A DNA stretch of 64,000 nucleotides, from assembly GCA_019455325.1 (NCBI GenBank), contig JACFMQ010000002.1, positions 393,353-457,352 on the forward strand, in the 5' to 3' direction. Each line of letters begins with the position of its first letter. Within the stretch, counting starts at the first letter, position 1. Below, piece by piece: positions 1-9,757 of the stretch. Both the position numbers and the translations under genes were made by a program. The notes under the pieces were generated by a model. That model did no database searches and had not been told where the DNA came from. It saw nothing but the letters and a program-made list of their open reading frames with translations. The stretch comes from Rhodocyclaceae bacterium. GTDB lineage: Bacteria > Pseudomonadota > Gammaproteobacteria > Burkholderiales > Rhodocyclaceae.

Positions 1-898
1 CCAGTTCGGCCGCCTTCTTCCAGTTGATCACGTGCAGGTAGTCGGTGTCCTTCGCCGAGCAGCCGGCTTCGTACGGCGGACGGCCCTTTTCGATGCCGCC
101 GACGTAGCGCTCCGTACAGAAGCTGTTGGTGAACGACCAGCCGTCCGACGGGCCCTTGCCGGCGTCCGACAGGTCCTGCGAGTACGGCGGCAGTTCGAGC
201 GAGAACGAGTCCTTCGGCTGGATGCGCCCTTCCTTGCGGTCGAACTTCCAGTAGGTGACGCCGCCGCGATACTTCTCGTTGAATTCTTCGAGCGGGTAGA
301 ACTTCTTGTTTTCGAGCGGCGCGGCGTATTGCGCGGCTTCGATGATGTAGTCGGTGTTCGGCGTGACGAAGGCGCCGCCGTGCTCGGACTTGTAGATCGG
401 GTTCACCACGATCTGCTTGGTCTCGAAGTCGCGCAGGTCGATCACCGCCAGCCGCGGGTTGGCCTTGTCGTTGATGAACAGGAACTGGCCGTCGTACTTG
501 CCGTCCGTCTCCGAGATCGCCGGGTGGTGCGTGTCGCCCCAGGTGATGTCGCGGCCGTCGATCTTGCCCTGCGCCAGCACCGCCTTCGAGCCTTCGTCGA
601 AGCCGTAGCCTTGCCACGGTTCCGGCGTGAACACGCCGATGTATTTCAGGATGCGCATCGACGGGATGCCGTACACGATCACCTGGCCCGACTGACCGCC
701 CGAGCTGAAGACGACGAATTCGTCCCGCTTGCCCGTCGGTACGTAGGTCTTGGCCGCCGCCAGCAGGTCCTGCTGCGACAGGTTCCGCCGCTTCATCACG
801 TCCTGCAGCGATTCCGCCGCCTGCGCGGCGCCTGCCGCTGCAAAACCGATTCCCGCCGCAAGCAGCATGACCAGCGCCTTGTGCCTAGGTTTGCTCAT
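1..898 (-). CDS. nosZ: Nitrous oxide reductase NosZ, second copy (C-terminal part beyond window edge)
   Basis: This is the N-terminal 299 residues of a periplasmic copper enzyme that reduces N2O to N2. The gene runs off the left edge, so the CuA domain is not visible. Bases 1-869 match 7996-8864 of the complete nosZ almost perfectly; I found three substitutions, at 767, 821 and 824. The identity stops inside the signal peptide: this copy begins MSKPRHKALVMLLAAG, whereas the other begins MMKTRMKQTVSMLLAAG. One substitution changes the residue before the predicted cleavage site (AQA here, AHA there). The start at 898 has a GGGGGT-type ribosome site about 7 bases upstream. It is a Sec-type leader with no twin-arginine motif. 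The gene lies 156 bases downstream of a three-gene signalling set on the same strand and has no visible FNR box, so it may be expressed differently from the other copy. Confidence 0.93.
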   Translation of the reverse strand, partial: MSKPRHKALVMLLAAGIGFAAAGAAQAAESLQDVMKRRNLSQQDLLAAAKTYVPTGKRDEFVVFSSGGQSGQVIVYGIPSMRILKYIGVFTPEPWQGYGFDEGSKAVLAQGKIDGRDITWGDTHHPAISETDGKYDGQFLFINDKANPRLAVIDLRDFETKQIVVNPIYKSEHGGAFVTPNTDYIIEAAQYAAPLENKKFYPLEEFNEKYRGGVTYWKFDRKEGRIQPKDSFSLELPPYSQDLSDAGKGPSDGWSFTNSFCTERYVGGIEKGRPPYEAGCSAKDTDYLHVINWKKAAEL

Positions 899-911
899 TT
901 TCGACCCCCTG

Positions 912-939
912 AAAAAAAGGATGGCGCGCCAGCCGCGCC
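912..939 (-). terminator. Possible terminator or attenuator between the response regulator and nosZ copy 2
   Basis: On the minus strand a 6-bp GC-only stem (GGCGCG/CGCGCC, loop GCTGG) is followed after four bases by seven T residues, just upstream of the second nosZ. The gap between stem and T-run makes it suboptimal. It could limit read-through from the signalling operon into nosZ. Confidence 0.35.
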
Positions 940-1054
940 CGCTGCCCCTGCGACAATCTGCCGCAGACGCATTATCGAAGGGCGACGGCCGCCGTTGCAG
1001 GTGAACGATGCTGGTTGCGGCACCGGAATGCGCCGGTACGCCATCGGAAAATTC

Positions 1055-1711
1055 CTAGACGGAGAAATCGTCGACGCTTTCGACGAGGCCGTGCTGGATC
1101 GCGTAATGGATCAGCTCGGCGGTGTTCGCCAGATCCATCTTGCTCAGGATGCTCGCCTTGTGCGTGCTCGCCGTCTTCACGCTGAGGCTGAGCCGGCGGC
1201 CGATCTCGGTGACGCCGAGGCCCTTGACCAGCAGCAGGAAGACCTCGTACTCGCGGTTCGTCAGGCGCAGGTGCGGCGCCTCCGCGTCGCGGCCGGAGAG
1301 CATCTGCCGGGCGAGCTTCTCGGCGATGCTGGCGCCGATGAACAGGCCGCCGCCGGCGACCTTGCGGATGGCGTCGGCGAGCTGCGTCTCGGCGTTGTCC
1401 TTGCACAGGTAGCCGGAGGCGCCGGCCTTCAGCGCGCGGACGGCGTAGATGTCCTCCTTGTGCATGCTGAGGACGAGGATCGGCAGGTTCGGAAACTCGC
1501 TCTTGATCTGCTTGATCAGCTCGATGCCGCTGCGCCCGGGCATCGTCAGGTCGAGCACCAGCGCGTGCCACTGCCCGCTGCGCAGCTTGGCGAGCGTCTC
1601 CGGGCCGTTACCCGCCTCGCCGGCGACGACGATGTCGCCGCTCTCGCTGAGGATGTATTTCAGGCCGGCGCGCAGGACGTCGTGGTCGTCGGCGATCAGC
1701 GTGCGGATCAT
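1055..1711 (-). CDS. NarL/UhpA-type response regulator
   Basis: A 218-residue cytoplasmic transcription factor with a receiver domain at residues 1-120 (acidic pair DD at 8-9, phosphoacceptor D54 in LVLDLTMPG, K about 104) and a LuxR-type helix-turn-helix at about 150-210 (LTNREYEVFLLLVKGLG then IGRRLSLSVKTASTHKASI). Its ATG overlaps the stop of the upstream receiver-kinase gene by four bases (1708-1711), indicating translational coupling. HisKA_3-class kinases usually phosphorylate NarL-type regulators, which fits the adjacent gene. The target is not shown by the sequence. The nearest downstream gene is the second nosZ copy, which is an attractive but unproven target. Confidence 0.9.
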   Translation of the reverse strand: MIRTLIADDHDVLRAGLKYILSESGDIVVAGEAGNGPETLAKLRSGQWHALVLDLTMPGRSGIELIKQIKSEFPNLPILVLSMHKEDIYAVRALKAGASGYLCKDNAETQLADAIRKVAGGGLFIGASIAEKLARQMLSGRDAEAPHLRLTNREYEVFLLLVKGLGVTEIGRRLSLSVKTASTHKASILSKMDLANTAELIHYAIQHGLVESVDDFSV

Positions 1712-2835
1712 GGTCGTTCTCCTCGGACGATCGGAAATTCGGCGACGATGCGCGTGCCGGCGCCGGGCGCGCCGACGATGTCGAGCGAGCCGCCGAGCAT
1801 CGCCACCCGTTCGCGCATGCCGAGCAGGCCGAAGCCCTGGCGCTTGCCGGCGGGGTCGATGCCGACGCCGTCGTCGCGCACCTCGACGCGCAGGCGGTCG
1901 CCGGCCTCGCGGATGTCTACGTCGATGCTGCCGGCCTGCGCGTGGCGCGAGACGTTGGTCAGCGACTCCTGGACGACGCGGAAGACGACGATCGCCAGCC
2001 GGTCGTCGAGGTCGAAGTCCTCGCGGTTCATGGTCAGCGTGCAGGCGATGCCGGTGCGCTCGGCGAAGTCGTTGGTCAGGTGCTCGATCGCCGCCGCCAG
2101 GCCGAGCGCATCGAGGACGCCGGGGCGCAGCCCCTCGGAAATGCGGCGCAGCGTGTCGATGATGCGCTCGACCAGGCCGTGCGCGGCGCCGACGCGCGCC
2201 ATCGCCGCTTCGCCGGCGGAAGGGCAGTCGCGGCGCAGCGCGCCGAGGTCGATGCGCAGCGCGGTCAGCGTCTGGCCAAGCTCGTCGTGCAGCTCGCGGG
2301 CGATCGTCGTCCGCTCCTCCTCGCGCACCGACTGCAGGAAGCCGGTCAGCTCCTGCAGGCGCCGCTGCGACTCGCGCAGCTCGGCCTCGGACTGCTGCAG
2401 TTGCGCGGTGCGCTCGGCGACGCGCTCTTCGAGCTTCGTCTGCAGCCGGCGCAACTCGACGTGCGTGCGCACGCGCGCCAGCACCTCCTCCGGCTGGAAC
2501 GGCTTGGCGATGTAGTCGACGGCGCCGAGGCCGAAGCCGCGCACCTTGTCGCCGGTGTCGCGCAGCGCGGAGAGGAAGATCACCGGCACGTCCCGCGTCC
2601 GCGCGTCGTCCTTCAACTGGCGGCAGACCTCGTAGCCGTCGATGCCGGGCATGCGCACGTCGAGCAGGATCAGGTCCGGCGGCCGCGCCTTCGCCGAGCG
2701 CAGCGCCATGCGTCCGTCCTGCGCCGGGCGCACCGCGTAGCCGGCGCCGGCGAGCAGTTCGCCGAGCAGGTCGAGCGACGCCGTCGTGTCGTCGACGATC
2801 AACACCTCGGCGCGCCGCGCCGCTTCGTCCGCCAT
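1708..2835 (-). CDS. Receiver domain fused to a NarX-type (HisKA_3) histidine kinase
   Basis: A 375-residue soluble protein with no signal peptide or membrane segment. Residues 9-125 are a receiver domain (D59 in LILLDVRMPG, K111 in IAKPF). A coiled coil follows at about 130-170. Next is a HisKA_3 dimerisation domain with H183 in ARELHDELGQ, then an HATPase_c domain ending near 370 (VEVRDDGVGI, GFGLLGMRER). The layout suggests a relay intermediate: it could receive phosphate from the upstream hybrid kinase on D59, which would control autophosphorylation at H183 and transfer to the NarL-type regulator encoded next. It sits three bases downstream of the sensor kinase gene and overlaps the regulator gene by four bases. 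Confidence 0.9.
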   Translation of the reverse strand: MADEAARRAEVLIVDDTTASLDLLGELLAGAGYAVRPAQDGRMALRSAKARPPDLILLDVRMPGIDGYEVCRQLKDDARTRDVPVIFLSALRDTGDKVRGFGLGAVDYIAKPFQPEEVLARVRTHVELRRLQTKLEERVAERTAQLQQSEAELRESQRRLQELTGFLQSVREEERTTIARELHDELGQTLTALRIDLGALRRDCPSAGEAAMARVGAAHGLVERIIDTLRRISEGLRPGVLDALGLAAAIEHLTNDFAERTGIACTLTMNREDFDLDDRLAIVVFRVVQESLTNVSRHAQAGSIDVDIREAGDRLRVEVRDDGVGIDPAGKRQGFGLLGMRERVAMLGGSLDIVGAPGAGTRIVAEFPIVRGERP

Positions 2836-2838
2836 GTC

Positions 2839-5412
2839 TTACGCCTCTTGATCGTAGATGCCGAGCATCTGCCAGAGCGCATGATAATGCCGGCAGCGGC
2901 AGATCTCGGAAAGCTGCGCGGCGAGCGCCGGCTGTTCGTCGGCGAGCGCAGCGAGCGCCGCGGCGATGCGCTCGGGGTCGAGCGAGACGGCGGCCTGCAC
3001 GAGCCGTTCGCGCATGGCTTCCGGCAGCGCATCGAGCGCCGGCAGCGGCGCGCCGGCCGGCGCGGCGGCGGTCGCCGGCGCCACGCCGAGCAGCGACTCG
3101 ATCACGCGGTACAGCTCGCCCTCCTCGAACGGCTTGGAGAGGAAGGCGTCGGCGCCGGCCGCCAGCGCCGCGGCGCGCGATTCGTCGAGGGCGTTGGCGG
3201 TGAGCATGGCGACGCGCGGCGGCCGGCCGTCCCGCCGCCGCTCCGCCGTCTCGCGCACGAGATCGATGCCGAGGCCGTCGTTCAGGAACCAGTCGAGCAG
3301 CACCAGGTCCGGCGGATCGGCGGCGATCGCCGCGCGCGCCTCGGCGAGCGAGGCGGCCTCGGCGACGGCGAAGGCCAGCGGTTCGAGCAGCGAACGCACG
3401 AGCAGGCGCGCCTCCGGGACGTCGTCGACGACCAGCACCCGGCGCCCGGCGCCGGCCGGCAGCGCCGCCCGGCAGGCGGCGTCCGGCGCCTGCGGCTGGC
3501 CGCCGCTCGGCACGCGGATCGAGAAACGGAAGGTCGAGCCCTTGCCCGGCGTCGAATCGACGGCCAGCTCGCCGCCCATCATCTGCACGTATTCCCGGCT
3601 GATCGTCAGGCCGAGCCCGGTGCCGCCCTGGCGCACATGGCCGACCTGCTCGAACGACGAGAAGATGCGCTCGCGGTCGGCGGCGGCGATGCCGACGCCG
3701 GTGTCGCTGACGGCGAGGGCGAGGCGGCAGAAGCCTTCGCCGTCCGGCTCGGCGCGCGCGCGGACGACGATGCTGCCGCCGCGCGGCGTGAACTTGACGG
3801 CGTTCGACAGCAGGTTGAGCAGCACCTGGCGCAGCATCAGCGGGTCGAGGACGACCACCGGCGGCAGGCCGTCGCTGTCGAGCCCGAGCGACAGGCCGGA
3901 CTCCTCGGCGCGCAGCCGCATCATGCCGACGACGGCGTCGAGCAGGCGCGCGGGGTCGGTTTCCTCGACCGCCATCTTCATCTTGCCGGATTCGATCTTC
4001 GACAGTTCGAGGATGTCGTTGATCAGCGTCAGCAGGTGGCGGCCGGACAGGTTGATGATCTCCAGGTGGCGCTGCTGCGCCGGCGACAGCGAGGCGTCGC
4101 GCTCCATCAACTGCGAGAAGCCGATCACCGCGTTCAGCGGCGTGCGCAGTTCGTGGTTCATGTTGGCGAGGAACATCGACTTGCTGCGGTTGGCCGCCTC
4201 GGCCTGGTCGCGCGCGACGACCAGTTCCTCGGTGCGCTGGCGGACCAGTTCTTCGAGGTGTTCGCGGTAGGTGGCGAGCTCCTGCTCGCTCTTCTTGCGC
4301 TGCGTGATGTCGGAGAAGATCGAGATGTAGCGGCGCACCTGGCCGTCGGGCGCGCGCAGCGCCTGGATCGAGATTTCCTCGGGGAAAGCCTCGCCGCTCT
4401 TGCGCCGGTTCCAGATCTCGCCGCGCCAGTGTCCGGCCGTCTGCAACTGCCGCCACAGCGCGGCGTAGAAATCGGCGTCGTGCAGGCCGGACTTCAGCAT
4501 GCGCGGATTGCGGCCGATCACCTCGTCGCGCACGAAGCCGTAGATCCGGCAGAAGGCATCGTTCACCCAGAGGATCGTCCCCGCGGCGTCGGTGATGATC
4601 GCCCCTTCGGCCATCGCCGAGAAGGCCATCTCGTTCTCCCGGCGCACTTCCTCCTGGCGCGCCAGGTCGGCGGCGCGGCGGCGCGCCAGCAGATGCAGCA
4701 GCAGGATGCCGGCGACGCCGAGCACCCAGACCCCCGAATGCCAGTACTGGATCACCCGCCAGGTCGGCTCCTGGACGGTGCGGTAGGCGTTCAGGTCGAC
4801 CGAGATGCTGGCCGCGCCGCGCAGGCCGCCGACCGGCACCAGCGTATCGCGGTGGCACTCCAGGCATTCGTCTTCCATGCGCATCGGCACCATGACCCGC
4901 ATCAGGCCGTGCCCGCCTTTGCGCGGCAACGCCTCGGCAACGACGTCGCCGCCCTTTTCGAGCGTTTCGAGCGCCTTCGCCTCCCACTCGTCGGGCGCAT
5001 TGTCGTAGTTGCGCAACTGCTTCGAGGTCAGCCGCTCGCGGATGCCGAACTCCTTCTGGCTGGTCTGCTGGATCGCCAGCAGCAGATGGATCGGCGTCAC
5101 CGCGACGAGGCGGAAGGATTCGGCGTCGCTGCGCGCGACGGTGACGCGCTCGGCCTCTTCGAGCGAATTGAACGGCGGCACGACCTCCTCGCGGATATAG
5201 ACGCCGCCGACGTTCGACGCCCATTTGCGGATCGCCATGTCCTTCTTCAGGTTGGCGACGGCGTCGATCCGGGCCAGCGCCGCCGCGGTGCGGTCGAGCT
5301 GCCCGCGCTGCATCAGCAGGGAGGCGACGACCAGCATGCTCCAGACGACGACGGTGAACAGCGCGCCGGCAGCGCCGTGCAGCGGCCAGTTGATTCGCGA
5401 TACGGCGTTCAT
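2839..5412 (-). CDS. Hybrid sensor kinase with periplasmic c-type-heme (Tll0287/DUF3365-like) sensor
   Basis: An 857-residue inner-membrane kinase. A membrane helix at about 13-35 and another at about 228-243 bracket a periplasmic domain that resembles DUF3365/Tll0287 (NAPDEWE near 138-144) and contains CLECH at 183-187, a c-type heme attachment motif. Then come a PAS domain (about 261-375), a HisKA domain with H420 in NMNHELRTPLNAVIG, an HATPase_c domain (GGTGLGLTISREYV), a receiver domain (LVVDDVPEARLL, LVLLDWFLNDG) and a C-terminal helical tail. The ATG at 5412 has an AGAGG site about 7 bases upstream; a longer frame would add 24 residues without such a site. Heme sensors of this type could report redox state, NO or another ligand; the ligand here is inference. 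Confidence 0.9.
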   Translation of the reverse strand: MNAVSRINWPLHGAAGALFTVVVWSMLVVASLLMQRGQLDRTAAALARIDAVANLKKDMAIRKWASNVGGVYIREEVVPPFNSLEEAERVTVARSDAESFRLVAVTPIHLLLAIQQTSQKEFGIRERLTSKQLRNYDNAPDEWEAKALETLEKGGDVVAEALPRKGGHGLMRVMVPMRMEDECLECHRDTLVPVGGLRGAASISVDLNAYRTVQEPTWRVIQYWHSGVWVLGVAGILLLHLLARRRAADLARQEEVRRENEMAFSAMAEGAIITDAAGTILWVNDAFCRIYGFVRDEVIGRNPRMLKSGLHDADFYAALWRQLQTAGHWRGEIWNRRKSGEAFPEEISIQALRAPDGQVRRYISIFSDITQRKKSEQELATYREHLEELVRQRTEELVVARDQAEAANRSKSMFLANMNHELRTPLNAVIGFSQLMERDASLSPAQQRHLEIINLSGRHLLTLINDILELSKIESGKMKMAVEETDPARLLDAVVGMMRLRAEESGLSLGLDSDGLPPVVVLDPLMLRQVLLNLLSNAVKFTPRGGSIVVRARAEPDGEGFCRLALAVSDTGVGIAAADRERIFSSFEQVGHVRQGGTGLGLTISREYVQMMGGELAVDSTPGKGSTFRFSIRVPSGGQPQAPDAACRAALPAGAGRRVLVVDDVPEARLLVRSLLEPLAFAVAEAASLAEARAAIAADPPDLVLLDWFLNDGLGIDLVRETAERRRDGRPPRVAMLTANALDESRAAALAAGADAFLSKPFEEGELYRVIESLLGVAPATAAAPAGAPLPALDALPEAMRERLVQAAVSLDPERIAAALAALADEQPALAAQLSEICRCRHYHALWQMLGIYDQEA

Positions 5413-5482
5413 GCGGAACCTCTTCGGGCACCCGGTGAAGCCCCCAAGTAAACCACAGATGCGCACGGCGATCAGGAGACGC

Positions 5483-5512
5483 AAAAAAGAGAGCCGGACC
5501 CGTCGGCCCGGC
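5483..5512 (-). terminator. Rho-independent terminator after the OmpW-family gene
   Basis: On the minus strand an 8-bp stem (GCCGGGCC/GGTCCGGC, one G-T pair, loop GACG) is followed by TCTCTTTTTT. It separates the porin gene from the sensor kinase gene, so the signalling set probably has its own promoter in the short stretch below it. Confidence 0.75.
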
Positions 5513-5578
5513 CTGAACCGGCCGCACCCGCAGGCTTTCCGGCGGGTACGGCGGAGAGGAATGAAGAAACGCGACGGC

Positions 5579-6229
5579 TCAGAAACGGTAGCCGATGCCG
5601 ACGCCGATCAGGAGGGGATCGAGCTTGACGCGCGAAACCTTGGCGCCGGCGTCGTTGCGCAGATCGCTGCGAATCTGCACCTTCTTGACGTCGAGGTTGA
5701 GGAACAGGTTCTTGCTCACCTTGACGTCGAACCCGGCCTGCAGCGCGCCGCCCCAACTGTCGTCCTCCAGGTGCAGGCGGGTGACGCCGGGAACGCGCAG
5801 GCGCTCGCTGGTGATGCGCGTGTAGTTCACGCCGGCGCCGACGTACGGACGGAAGACGCCGTCGGGATTGAAGTGCCACTGCAAGGTCAGCGTCGGCGGC
5901 AGATGCTTGAAGGAGCCGGCCTTGAAGGCGCCGATCGCGCTGCTGCCGACTTTCACGTCGTGCTTCTGCGGATAGGTCAGGATCAGTTCGGCAGCGAGGT
6001 TCTTCGTCAGGAAATAGCTGATGTCGAGCTCCGGAATCGTCTTGTCTTCGACGCGGATGGCGTCGCCCGGAACGGCCAGCGCCGGAATCGGCGTCGACCG
6101 GTGCTCCATGTCGAGATGCACGGCGCGGGCGCGGACCAGCCAGCGGCCTTCGGCGACCTCCTGCGCGGTAGCCGGCAACGCGGCGAGAACGGCGGTGGAA
6201 AGAACGAGAAACTTCATTGCGCAGCGCAT
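5579..6229 (-). CDS. OmpW-family outer membrane protein
   Basis: A 216-residue secreted beta-barrel protein. The N-terminus (MRCAMKFLVLSTAVLAALPA then TAQ) is a Sec signal peptide. The mature chain has alternating beta-strand character and ends in a terminal phenylalanine (GVGIGYRF), typical of outer membrane proteins assembled by the BAM complex. Features such as LDISYFLTKNLAAELILTYP and PYVGAGVNY are typical of OmpW. A GGGAGG site six bases before the ATG at 6229 fixes the start; MKFLV four codons later is an alternative. OmpW porins are thought to pass small hydrophobic compounds. It lies between nosZ and the signalling set but is bounded by its own terminator. Confidence 0.88.
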   Translation of the reverse strand: MRCAMKFLVLSTAVLAALPATAQEVAEGRWLVRARAVHLDMEHRSTPIPALAVPGDAIRVEDKTIPELDISYFLTKNLAAELILTYPQKHDVKVGSSAIGAFKAGSFKHLPPTLTLQWHFNPDGVFRPYVGAGVNYTRITSERLRVPGVTRLHLEDDSWGGALQAGFDVKVSKNLFLNLDVKKVQIRSDLRNDAGAKVSRVKLDPLLIGVGIGYRF

Positions 6230-6592
6230 GGCTGACCTCCCTGATGGTTGCTTATCGGATCGCGGCGTCCGGATCGGCCGGGCGCGCGCAGAAGAAGCGC
6301 CGTCCCGCGGCCGTGCCGGACCCTCCGGCGCCTTCCCGGTTCTTCCGGGAAGGATTGCGGAGCGGGGACTTGCCTGCGTCGACCGATACCCGCCGCGACG
6401 ATCCGATTATGCGAACAGTAAGCACACCGGCATAGGTGAGGTTTGCTGGTAAACAGGCCGGATTCATCCGGGAAGGACTCGGAAAAATCCTATCCGGCAT
6501 AGCCGCCGGCAACGGGGGAGGGAGAATTGGAGGCGAAAAAAAGGGGCAGATCGCTCTGCCCCTTTCGGATGCTGCCGGAAACCGGCGTCGAC
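6230..6592. other. Intergenic stretch between ompW and nosZ
   Basis: There is no credible gene in these 363 bases. The nosZ terminator lies at 6535-6565, and the remainder presumably contains the ompW promoter. I saw no FNR-type palindrome here. Confidence 0.6.
6535..6565 (-). terminator. Rho-independent terminator of nosZ
   Basis: On the minus strand a perfect stem (AGGGGCAGA/TCTGCCCCT, loop GCGA) is followed by a run of seven T residues, 28 bases after the nosZ stop. It marks the complete nosZ copy as a monocistronic unit. Confidence 0.9.
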
Positions 6593-8896
6593 TTACTTGG
6601 CGACCTTCTTCGCGCCGTTCTGTTCGAGATAAGTCTTGGCACGCAGGCCGAGGTCAGCGGCCTTCACCTGGTACTGCCACACCTGCTCCGCCCACAGCGT
6701 CGCCTGGTTCCAGTCCTTCTTCGCCGCCGCGTCCTCGTGCTTCTGCTTCGCGTCCTTGATCTTGCTCAGTTGATCCGTGGCATCCTCCACCATCGCCACC
6801 ACGTCCGGGAAGTCCTTGAAGTTCACGCTCGTGATGTAACCCACCACCTGGTCGATCACCGCCTGCGTGTCCGCCACCTTCTTCAGCTGCTTCTTGTAGT
6901 CCGCTTCCGAATACACGGCCTTTTCCGCCGCCGCCGTCTTCGTCGGCTTCCAGCCCTTCGGCTTCACCAGCAGGTAGCCCTGCATTTCAAGGTGCAGCGC
7001 CGAGCAGAACTCCGTGCAGTAGTACGGGTACACGCCTTCCTTGTCCGCCTTGAACTTCACCGTCACCGTCTTGCCCGGCTCGACCGACGCATGCACGTTG
7101 TAGGTCGAGACCGTGAAGCCGTGCGTTTCGTCCTGCGCGCGTTCGAGGTTGGTCAGGTGTATCGTGACTTCGTCACCGACGTCCACTTCGATCGTTTCCG
7201 GCGTGATGTGCGAGCGGATCAGCGTGCCGTAGACCGTGACCTTGTTGCCCTTCTTCTCGGTCTTTTCTTCGCCCGCGCGCACGCGGCCCGGATGCGGCTG
7301 GTCGGTGCGCGAGTCGGTGCCCACCTTGTAGCGGACGCCCGGCTTCAGCTTGCTCGCTTCGATCGCCACCGCGTAGTGCGGTTCGCCCAGCGGCAGCGGC
7401 ATGTCGTACAGCAGCTGCATCTTGTCGTTGCTGATGTCGATCAACTGGTGGTTCTGCGGGTGCAGCGGGCCCACCGGTACGAAGCGGTCGATCGCCAGCT
7501 TGTTCAGCGCCACCAGGTAGCGGCCCTTCGGATCCGTCGAGTCACCTTCCATCGCCATCAGGTGGCCGATGTTGTAGTGCACCGAGATCTTGTCCAGCAC
7601 CTTGCCTTCGCAGTAGTTCCACTTCACCACCTGCGAGTCTACGTACAGCGAGGTGTAGGCCACGCACTGCTTGGCGTCGTACTGCGTGTGCAGCGGGCCG
7701 AGGCCGAGTTGCACCTGGGTGTGCAGCGCGTCCTTCATGCCGATCACCGGGATGCCGTACGGGTCCTTCGATTCGAACTTGCCGGCCTGGATCGCGGCCT
7801 GGATCTTTTCGAACGAGTACACCGAGACGTGCGTGTCGAGCTTGCCGGATACCGTGATGAACTTGCCGTCCGGCGTGACGTCGACGCCGTGCGGCGACTT
7901 CGGTTCGGGCACCAGGAAGAGGATGCCTTCCTTGACCGCGGTGTCGATCGACAGCACGTTGTGCCCGTTGATCTTCTTCGCCTTGCCGCCGGCAACCAGT
8001 TCGGCCGCCTTCTTCCAGTTGATCACGTGCAGGTAGTCGGTGTCCTTCGCCGAGCAGCCGGCTTCGTACGGCGGACGGCCCTTTTCGATGCCGCCGACGT
8101 AGCGCTCCGTACAGAAGCTGTTGGTGAACGACCAGCCGTCCGACGGGCCCTTGCCGGCGTCCGACAGGTCCTGCGAGTACGGCGGCAGTTCGAGCGAGAA
8201 CGAGTCCTTCGGCTGGATGCGCCCTTCCTTGCGGTCGAACTTCCAGTAGGTGACGCCGCCGCGATACTTCTCGTTGAATTCTTCGAGCGGGTAGAACTTC
8301 TTGTTTTCGAGCGGCGCGGCGTATTGCGCGGCTTCGATGATGTAGTCGGTGTTCGGCGTGACGAAGGCGCCGCCGTGCTCGGACTTGTAGATCGGGTTCA
8401 CCACGATCTGCTTGGTCTCGAAGTCGCGCAGGTCGATCACCGCCAGCCGCGGGTTGGCCTTGTCGTTGATGAACAGGAACTGGCCGTCGTACTTGCCGTC
8501 CGTCTCCGAGATCGCCGGGTGGTGCGTGTCGCCCCAGGTGATGTCGCGGCCGTCGATCTTGCCCTGCGCCAGCACCGCCTTCGAGCCTTCGTCGAAGCCG
8601 TAGCCTTGCCACGGTTCCGGCGTGAACACGCCGATGTATTTCAGGATGCGCATCGACGGGATGCCGTACACGATCACCTGGCCCGACTGACCGCCCGAGC
8701 TGAAGACGACGAATTCGTCCCGCTTGCCCGTCGGTACGTAGGTCTTGGCCGCCGCCAGCAGATCCTGCTGCGACAGGTTCCGCCGCTTCATCACGTCCTG
8801 CAGCGATTCCGCCGCGTGTGCGGCGCCTGCCGCTGCAAAACCGATTCCCGCCGCAAGCAGCATGGATACGGTTTGCTTCATACGGGTCTTCATCAT
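6593..8896 (-). CDS. nosZ: Nitrous oxide reductase NosZ (complete copy, Sec-type leader)
   Basis: A 767-residue periplasmic enzyme reducing N2O to N2, the last step of denitrification. The leader (MMKTRMKQTVSMLLAAG to AHA|AES) is Sec-type with no RR motif, which points to the clade II (atypical) NosZ group. The beta-propeller contains the CuZ-type histidine motif WGDTHHPAISE and EHGGAF. The cupredoxin domain carries the CuA motif CTEFCSALHLEM, with its cysteines at about 627 and 631. About 110 residues of mainly charged, helical sequence without a heme motif follow CuA; many NosZ proteins end soon after it. GGGAGA precedes ATG-ATG at 8896/8893, so either ATG may start. The promoter carries an FNR/DNR box (9005-9018) and the gene ends at its own terminator. 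nosDFYL are not in the window. Confidence 0.97.
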   Translation of the reverse strand: MMKTRMKQTVSMLLAAGIGFAAAGAAHAAESLQDVMKRRNLSQQDLLAAAKTYVPTGKRDEFVVFSSGGQSGQVIVYGIPSMRILKYIGVFTPEPWQGYGFDEGSKAVLAQGKIDGRDITWGDTHHPAISETDGKYDGQFLFINDKANPRLAVIDLRDFETKQIVVNPIYKSEHGGAFVTPNTDYIIEAAQYAAPLENKKFYPLEEFNEKYRGGVTYWKFDRKEGRIQPKDSFSLELPPYSQDLSDAGKGPSDGWSFTNSFCTERYVGGIEKGRPPYEAGCSAKDTDYLHVINWKKAAELVAGGKAKKINGHNVLSIDTAVKEGILFLVPEPKSPHGVDVTPDGKFITVSGKLDTHVSVYSFEKIQAAIQAGKFESKDPYGIPVIGMKDALHTQVQLGLGPLHTQYDAKQCVAYTSLYVDSQVVKWNYCEGKVLDKISVHYNIGHLMAMEGDSTDPKGRYLVALNKLAIDRFVPVGPLHPQNHQLIDISNDKMQLLYDMPLPLGEPHYAVAIEASKLKPGVRYKVGTDSRTDQPHPGRVRAGEEKTEKKGNKVTVYGTLIRSHITPETIEVDVGDEVTIHLTNLERAQDETHGFTVSTYNVHASVEPGKTVTVKFKADKEGVYPYYCTEFCSALHLEMQGYLLVKPKGWKPTKTAAAEKAVYSEADYKKQLKKVADTQAVIDQVVGYITSVNFKDFPDVVAMVEDATDQLSKIKDAKQKHEDAAAKKDWNQATLWAEQVWQYQVKAADLGLRAKTYLEQNGAKKVAK

Positions 8897-9004
8897 TGAC
8901 TCTCCCATCTTATTGATCGTGCTTGCCATCTGAATTGCCATTGGCATCAACCTACACCTGCGGCAATATGTCGCATATGATCCGAGTCGGGACTCTGCCA
9001 AACT

Positions 9005-9018
9005 TTGATGCAGGTCAA
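9005..9018 (-). promoter_or_regulatory. FNR/DNR-type box upstream of nosZ
   Basis: Plus-strand TTGATGCAGGTCAA matches the TTGAT-N4-ATCAA consensus in nine of ten positions. Its centre is about 115 bases before the nosZ ATG. A class II promoter (-41.5) would place the transcript start near 8970, with a CATATG -10-like element at 8974-8979. It could also act on the divergent gene at 9112. Confidence 0.75.
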
Positions 9019-9111
9019 GTTTCCCAAGGATTGAGGCGCGCAGAATTTTCCGGCCCCGCGTTTTGCGCGGCCGGCCGCCGCTCCGACCTGCCGCCCTCCA
9101 CCCATCCTGCC

Positions 9112-9603
9112 GTGTCCGACCGCACTCCCCTTCCTTCCTCCGCCCGCCGCAAACTGTTGCTCGACGCCGGCATCGTGGCGGCGCTCGTCGCCCTCGGCGC
9201 CGCCGGCTACCTGCTGGCGCCGCTGCTGACGCCGCGCACCGACGTCGTGCTGCCGCAGTCCGCCTGCGATCTCGGGGCCGGGCCGTGCACCATCGAACTT
9301 CCCGGCGGCGGCCGCGTCGAGGTGGCGATCGAGCCGCGCCCGATCCCGGCGCTGAAGCCGCTGAAGCTGACGGCCGTCGCCAGCGGCGCGGAGGTCGCCA
9401 GGGTCGAGGTCGACTTCGCCGGCGTCGACATGAACATGGGCTACAACCGCCCGCGCCTCGAAAGCCTCGGCAACGGCCGCTTCGCCGGCCAGGGCAGCCT
9501 GCCCGTCTGCATCACCGGCAGGATGCCGTGGGCGGCGACGTTCATCGTCGAAAGCCGCCGCACGGTCGTCGCCGCGCCGTTCCGCTTCGACGCGGGAGAC
9601 TGA
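9112..9603 (+). CDS. Membrane-anchored YtkA/FixH-like protein, function unknown
   Basis: A 163-residue protein with a short cytoplasmic stretch, one membrane helix (about residues 15-40, GIVAALVALGAAGYLLAPLL) and a periplasmic beta-rich domain. The domain contains two cysteines (CDLGAGPC) and the segment DMNMGYNRPRLESLGNGRF followed by CITGRMPWAATFIVES. This pattern resembles YtkA/FixH-like domains, some of which act in copper supply. The Met-rich segment and location beside nosZ and nor genes make a copper-delivery role possible but unproven. The GTG at 9112 is chosen because an earlier start would run across the nosZ promoter box; no strong ribosome site is visible. Confidence 0.6.
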   Translation: MSDRTPLPSSARRKLLLDAGIVAALVALGAAGYLLAPLLTPRTDVVLPQSACDLGAGPCTIELPGGGRVEVAIEPRPIPALKPLKLTAVASGAEVARVEVDFAGVDMNMGYNRPRLESLGNGRFAGQGSLPVCITGRMPWAATFIVESRRTVVAAPFRFDAGD

Positions 9604-9743: not shown

Positions 9744-9757
9744 TTGATCGAAGTCAA
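9744..9757 (+). promoter_or_regulatory. FNR/DNR-type box upstream of norC
   Basis: TTGATCGAAGTCAA is a near-perfect FNR/DNR palindrome (one mismatch to TTGAT-N4-ATCAA). Its centre lies 81 bases before the norC ATG, compatible with a -41.5 activator position and a start site near 9792. It points to control of the nor operon by an NO- or oxygen-responsive Crp/Fnr regulator. Confidence 0.8.

Follow-up and report, generated by a model that had tools for sequence, protein, structure and literature searches.

The window analysed here is a 64,000-nucleotide (nt) stretch, G000:C24:393353-457352, from the 4.46-Mb, 31-contig genome (G000) of a Rhodocyclaceae bacterium related to Dechloromonas. It carries two near-identical copies of nosZ, the gene for nitrous oxide (N2O) reductase, with signalling genes between them, in the order nosZ1, haem-c sensor kinase, second kinase, NarL-type regulator, nosZ2 and nos operon. 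We consider it probable that the two clade II nosZ genes form an old tandem pair around a two-component cassette, in which one enzyme, homogenised by gene conversion, is served by two inputs.

nosZ1 (copy 1; 6593..8896, minus strand) encodes a Sec-type clade II N2O reductase of 767 amino acids (aa). The 5′ part of nosZ2 (copy 2) occupies 1..898 on the minus strand, and the gene runs on to the left of the window. The first-pass annotation had described two nearly identical nosZ bodies with different leaders, and extending the sequence leftward revealed copy 2 to be a complete open frame of 765 aa (G000:C24:391953-394250) on a 595-kb contig. Both products exceed the NCBIfam TIGR04246 cut-off of 625 bits (933.6 for copy 1 and 931.8 for copy 2), which assigns them to the Sec-dependent clade II. 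The CuA motif of the NosZ cupredoxin domain, CxxFCxxxHxxM, is present in both as CTEFCSALHLEM. In the same-genus genome G004, NosZ has a twin-arginine-like leader (L012 1495-3549, minus strand) and is clade I by reading, with no clade II match listed.

The cassette comprises three genes on the minus strand. HK861 (2839..5412, start codon uncertain) combines a Tll0287-like (PF11845) sensor bearing the haem-c motif CLECH with PAS, HisKA, HATPase and receiver domains. It is followed by HK375 (1708..2835), a receiver and HisKA_3 histidine kinase, and by RR218 (1055..1711), a NarL-type response regulator with receiver and LuxR/GerE domains. Between HK861 and nosZ1 lies a gene for an OmpW-family protein (5579..6229, minus strand); a match to OmpW at this position is found in G000 and in none of the 13 other pairs described below. 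On the other side of nosZ1 is hyp164 (9109..9603, plus strand), a divergent gene for a 164-aa protein without a family match. The genes 3′ of nosZ2 encode a cytochrome c (two Cytochrom_C stretches), a membrane protein with no family match above cut-off, NosD (TIGR04247, above cut-off), NapG-like (below cut-off) and NapH-like (NapH/MauN subfamily, above cut-off) ferredoxins and an ABC ATPase; further nosL/nosY-type genes downstream are named by position only.

To place this locus among its relatives, we looked for nosZ in sets of 297 genomes from the family, 7 from the same genus, 76 from g62 (the genus that holds Dechloromonas), 19 from g20 and 5 from g30, together about 370 distinct genomes. 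In 14 of them, two intact nosZ genes stand in tandem on either side of the cassette (G000, G025, G029, G035, G085, G093, G202, G239, G292, G301, G303, G336, G343 and G344), five of which are single-contig assemblies (G029, G085, G301, G336 and G343). In all 14, nosZ2 is followed by genes for the cytochrome c, the membrane protein and NosD, with nosG and nosH wherever the examined stretch reached, and hyp164 adjoins nosZ1 in 11 (it was not found for G239, G292 and G093). Among 18 examined loci with one nosZ and no adjoining cassette, 17 read hyp164, nosZ, cytochrome c (G300 is without hyp164), and the single-copy order is therefore the pair order minus the cassette and one nosZ. nosZ1 occupies the site of the relatives' single nosZ. 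In many other genomes, the nosZ matches are fragmented. Other layouts, counted like the single-copy loci as assembled, have one nosZ behind the cassette (G199, G176, G060, G181 and G198, the contig of G181 stopping just past nosZ), one nosZ ahead of it (G031 and G231), a divergent cassette (G172, G149 and G115) or the cassette on a separate contig (G236 and G277). No nosZ2 remnants were found in G031 or G231, where other genes come after the regulator. In G031 (L181 8050-9800), these are, by reading, genes for a Crp-like regulator and a small cytochrome c, between the cassette regulator and a nos operon lacking nosZ2; an exact copy of the cassette-side promoter box discussed below (TAGGAATATTCCTA) is retained there despite the absence of nosZ2. 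In genera g20 and g24 (L046, L047, L048 and L187), both kinases are shortened to one frame of ~516 aa with a haem-sensor part and a HisKA_3 part, which by its domains is a plain two-component version of the relay.

The pair itself has been known since Salinero et al. (2009; PMC2907700) described two identical nosZ genes within a kinase and regulator cluster of Dechloromonas aromatica RCB, whose identifiers (nosZ1 and nosZ2, VIMSS 583543 and 583547) leave space for three genes between them, as here. As far as the available text of that paper goes, it concerns one genome, reads the cluster as signalling or NO (nitric oxide) detoxification, and contains no treatment of concerted evolution, promoter comparison or cassette transfer. 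It also notes two nosZ genes in the clade II nos cluster of Wolinella succinogenes, which, unlike the present locus, lacks an embedded signalling cluster; regulation there is attributed to Crp/Fnr-type Nss regulators (PMC11539149, partial text) rather than to a two-component cassette. Elsewhere, 15 metagenome-assembled genomes (MAGs) with two nosZ genes are reported, in none of which the two are identical or separated by 45 genes or fewer (PMC11409646, partial text). The twin-nosZ/cassette arrangement is not described in the accessible portions of PMC6331397, PMC11906303, PMC9381517, PMC11409646, PMC11539149 or PMC12889525, and for this pair no report of concerted evolution, an operator or cassette transfer was found in the literature searched, which largely excludes subscription papers. 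What is new here is the concerted evolution, the split promoter boxes, the apparent cassette transfer and the probable assembly collapse.

These comparisons leave little room for the left copy being misassembled or truncated, which is unlikely because that copy is complete on its contig and the same layout is present in five single-contig genomes. That a single nosZ was duplicated in silico is very improbable: near-identical repeats are error-prone, and copy 1 of G239 has a 98-N gap and an adjoining repeated stretch, but the G000 copies have 39 differing sites, distinct leaders and distinct flanks, the layout recurs in single-contig genomes, the D. aromatica pair was described independently, and the assembly error that we do observe is collapse, not duplication.

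Concerted evolution of the pair

The three mismatches reported by the first-pass annotation between 1-869 and 7996-8864 are exact (767, G/A; 821, C/G; 824, C/T), and the identity does break off inside the signal peptide, falling to background level from 870 onward. Over the full alignment (G000:C24:391962-394221), the copies differ by 39 substitutions in 2,260 nt, of which 36 lie in the 3′-most 712 nt and 3 at the 5′ end, with 1,445 nt of unbroken identity between them. By our own arithmetic for a fixed stretch, a clean run of 1,445 nt has a chance of ~5e-18 if differences are evenly spread, and the run suggests a conversion tract because one this long is not expected under such a spread. Between the two proteins, 12 aligned positions differ, and 7 of these fall in the signal peptide.

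The same behaviour extends across the family. Synonymous divergence (dS) between the two copies of one genome is 0-0.0671 in all 14 pairs and zero in 8 of them; between orthologues at the same position in different genomes it is 0.22-0.50 (six genome pairs). In a tree of the nosZ body, paralogues are sisters in 13/13 pairs, G093 being outside the tree. The signal peptides follow another pattern. Between G025 and G085, they are 98.9% (copy 1) and 83.3% (copy 2) identical across species and 64.5 and 60.2% identical within each genome; the bodies are 93.1% identical across species and 100% within each genome. G239 and G292 show the same trend less clearly, as their leaders are also alike within genomes (91.1 and 94.4%) and the region upstream of G239 copy 1 is gapped. 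Read from these alignments, nosZ pairs evolve in concert and leaders follow position.

This bears on the view that nosZ was duplicated recently and independently in each lineage and that no gene conversion has persisted. Sister paralogues in the body tree are expected from recent duplication too, and single-copy relatives are common. However, the same layout occurs with strongly diverged cassettes (66-91% nt identity over aligned parts) among the 14 pair genomes, in G025/G085 (less cleanly in G239/G292) each leader and flank has its orthologue at the same position of the partner genome, and divergence is mosaic within the nosZ pairs of G000 and G343. We regard this view as quite improbable. 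Since leaders and flanks are shared by position yet bodies are homogenised per genome, the duplication predates the body identity; on the same grounds it also predates the species split of G025 and G085 and, less firmly, that of G239 and G292. The first-pass annotation had offered either a recent duplication or continuing gene conversion in which the regulatory part stays distinct; the second of these stands, and recency does not, given the leaders shared by position across genomes. Its description of duplicated nosZ as uncommon holds only in part, as other members of the family share the layout, further cases are hidden by assembly collapse and the D. aromatica pair was published in 2009.

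The tufA and tufB genes of enterobacteria are near-identical duplicates with separate promoters that are likewise homogenised by gene conversion. The nosZ pair differs in that it flanks sensor genes that probably control one of the copies, and in that its cassette seems to move between species. Under the old-pair reading, gene conversion would hold the mature enzyme identical or nearly so, and its tracts would halt before the differing promoter boxes. In all 14 pairs, the shared tract ends 9-179 nt upstream of the anchor codon, and its downstream end is at about the stop codon in 13; in G344, the FNR-type box is at -187 and the shared tract already ends at 73. Across pairs, the FNR-type boxes of copy 1 (at most 1 mismatch) start at -187 to -236 and the TAGGAA boxes of copy 2 at -234 to -286.

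Promoter boxes and the putative haem sensor

The nosZ1 promoter of G000 contains a 17-bp palindrome, TGCGACATATTGCCGCA (8959..8975, minus strand), and an FNR-type box, TTGACCTGCATCAA (9005..9018, minus strand), with none at the equivalent place before copy 2. The nosZ2 promoter contains the palindrome TGCGGCAGATTGTCGCA (949..965, minus strand) and a candidate operator of the NarL-type regulator, TAGGAATTTTCCGA (1044..1057, minus strand), which overlaps the regulator stop codon and has 1 mismatch to TAGGAANNTTCCTA. The first-pass annotation had called the N-termini different and the upstream DNA unrelated; the leaders do differ, but the upstream regions are not wholly unrelated, as the palindrome TGCGRCANNTTGYCGCA is in both promoters. 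In most copy 1 and single nosZ genes, the FNR-type box lies ~43 bp upstream of the palindrome (TGCGRCAWATTGYCGCA); copy 2 has the palindrome and no FNR-type box. Beyond hyp164 lie two genes read as norC (Cytochrom_C match) and norB (by reading only), preceded by a second FNR-type box, TTGATCGAAGTCAA (9744-9757), and because of this box nor and nosZ1 may have FNR-type control in common.

We compared 24 nosZ promoters on the cassette side with 34 others. TAGGAANNTTCCTA occurs at up to 1 mismatch in 20/24 of the former (all except G239, G202, G149 and G093) and 0/34 of the latter, and at up to 2 mismatches in 22/24 versus 1/34; excluding G236 and G277, which were assigned to the cassette side after their boxes were seen, the first count is 18/22. 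The FNR-type box shows the opposite distribution (0/24 versus 23/34 at up to 1 mismatch), and the palindrome is in 14/24 versus 31/34 at the same threshold. Among 1160 shuffled upstream regions, the operator box was found in none at up to 1 mismatch, in 8 at 2 and in 92 at 3. The box was also looked for behind the regulator gene at 14 further loci: where the regulator is at least 60% identical, it is present within 75 nt of that gene in 7/10 at up to 1 mismatch and in 9/10 at up to 2 (G166 has 3 mismatches), and where the regulator is more distant, in 1/4. Genome-wide, the exact box occurs at 0-2 places per genome in 9 genomes, with no exact one in G000, G336, G029 or G222. TAGGAANNTTCCTA is probably the operator of the cassette's own NarL-type regulator, and nosZ2 and the nos accessory operon behind it would then be under the control of that regulator, with nosZ1 under the FNR-type anoxia box.

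The signal may be suggested by HK861. Its sensor domain matches PF11845 (E 6.8e-13), and the haem motif CxxCH is kept in 28/28 HK861 orthologues. The sCache_heme (DUF3365/Tll0287) family carries haem c, and one signalling-linked member releases NO slowly, like known NO sensors (PMC12889525, a 2026 preprint available in part). What HK861 shares with those proteins is the PF11845 match and the conserved CxxCH; the accessible text of the preprint is without the terms nosZ, nitrous or Dechloromonas. That HK861 senses NO is plausible, as is control of nosZ2 and the accessory operon by an NO-fed switch, because NO is the precursor of N2O. The likely logic is that anoxia drives copy 1 and extracytoplasmic NO (or redox) drives copy 2, as HK861 has a haem-c domain of a class with one NO-sensor-like signalling member.

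G000 has three sites of the palindrome, the two nosZ promoters and G000:C24:362838-362854, 107 nt before a gene for a PCuAC copper chaperone. Genome scans of 8 relatives gave additional sites at SCO1/SenC genes in G301, G305 and G029, at a TonB-copper receptor above cut-off and at no recognised copper gene in G029, at TonB-receptor operons of unclear substrate in G222 and G343, and at a small unknown protein in G336, with no extra sites in G001 and G085. The palindrome may belong to a copper-linked regulator; a RegA/RoxR-type box is one conceivable identity. The cassette regulator is disfavoured as its binder, as G001 and G002 carry the palindrome without an HK375 match at E <= 1e-70.

Several observations weigh against two separate inputs to one enzyme. 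The operator counts are not independent of discovery because the box was picked by eye on the counted sequences, and all promoter counts rest on related, and hence non-independent, genomes. Among the further loci, G031 (exact) and G231 (2 mismatches) were already known, leaving 6/8 at up to 1 mismatch and 7/8 at up to 2, and a reversed-pattern control matched once in the genome scan, in G336. Copy 2 of G202 and G093 has only operator boxes with 3 mismatches, and copy 1 of G344 has one with 2. FNR-type boxes are often degenerate (TTAAC...ATCAA) in copy 1 of the Dechloromonas type; a looser pattern that catches 29/34 was built after these were seen, and the gap upstream of G239 copy 1 falls within this comparison. 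The AlphaFold2 model of the HK861 sensor is poor (mean predicted local distance difference test score, pLDDT, 52.5, with the sensor domain mostly <50), too poor for a Cache fold to be read from it, and the sensor has no sequence match in the PDB. The two G000 proteins are not identical, as 4 differences lie between residue 547 and residue 579 and a further one at the C-terminus, and the palindrome common to both promoters may outweigh the differing boxes in importance.

A competing explanation is gene dosage, whereby two copies would just yield more NosZ and the promoter differences would be incidental. The enzymes are identical or nearly so, and the same palindrome, which is near copper genes at several other places, is usually in both promoters. 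However, the FNR and TAGGAA boxes are partitioned and the conversion tracts end before them, which suggests that the difference is kept, and some cassette-bearing genomes, as assembled, have one nosZ only, behind the cassette. We judge dosage to be unlikely, albeit the strongest of the competing explanations. With an old, homogenised pair, selection would preserve the promoter split, and where the first-pass annotation had considered that duplication could raise or widen N2O reduction, a broader regulation, not a different enzyme, is what the promoters suggest.

Possible cassette transfer and probable assembly collapse

The cassette itself may have moved between species. G336 and G343 are 91.2% identical in the cassette and 89.8% in the nosZ body, compared with 81.9% downstream, 73.7% upstream and 83.5% in rpoB. 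In other comparisons, nosZ is better conserved than the cassette (91.9 versus 78.9% in G301/G343, for example). The nosZ genes of G336, whose two bodies are identical, and the upstream and downstream regions resemble those of the single-copy genome G305 (rpoB 90.4%). As the cassette and leader 2 of G336 are G343-like and its nosZ and flanks G305-like, the cassette looks to have been acquired from another species with a G343-like source, both nosZ genes being of the resident type. A tentative extension, to which we give slightly less than even weight, is that the nosZ genes are the homology arms of a mobile cassette consisting of sensor kinase, kinase, regulator and promoter/leader 2. Such a cassette would enter and leave nos clusters by homologous recombination, with conversion keeping the arms identical and turning the incoming nosZ to the resident type. 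One case, G336, underlies this proposal, and excision itself was not seen.

Near-identical twins also appear to affect how these loci are assembled. In five MAGs, a whole contig of 3.0-5.1 kb consists only of a nosZ 3′ end, the cassette and a nosZ 5′ end (G007:C137, G255:C18, G071:C125, G212:C16 and G009:C22; loci L083, L085, L086, L090 and L173), and all five genomes fall outside the 89/297 whose nosZ match reaches E <= 1e-100. D. denitrificans BAA-841 (G067) has its cassette flanked on both sides by a 10-N scaffold gap, and another of its contigs breaks off within nosZ. The simple reading of the nosZ-bounded contigs is collapse of identical twin repeats in assembly or binning; conceivably, an excised circle would give the same contigs. 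Short-read assembly thus seems to merge near-identical twin nosZ genes, and MAGs can lose nosZ altogether. As nosZ-bounded contigs occur in genomes that have no scoring nosZ, N2O reducers can go unnoticed in MAG surveys.

NosZ destroys the greenhouse gas nitrous oxide. The conserved cassette, the candidate operator and two natural promoters before one enzyme mean that the cues switching clade II N2O reduction can be tested directly.

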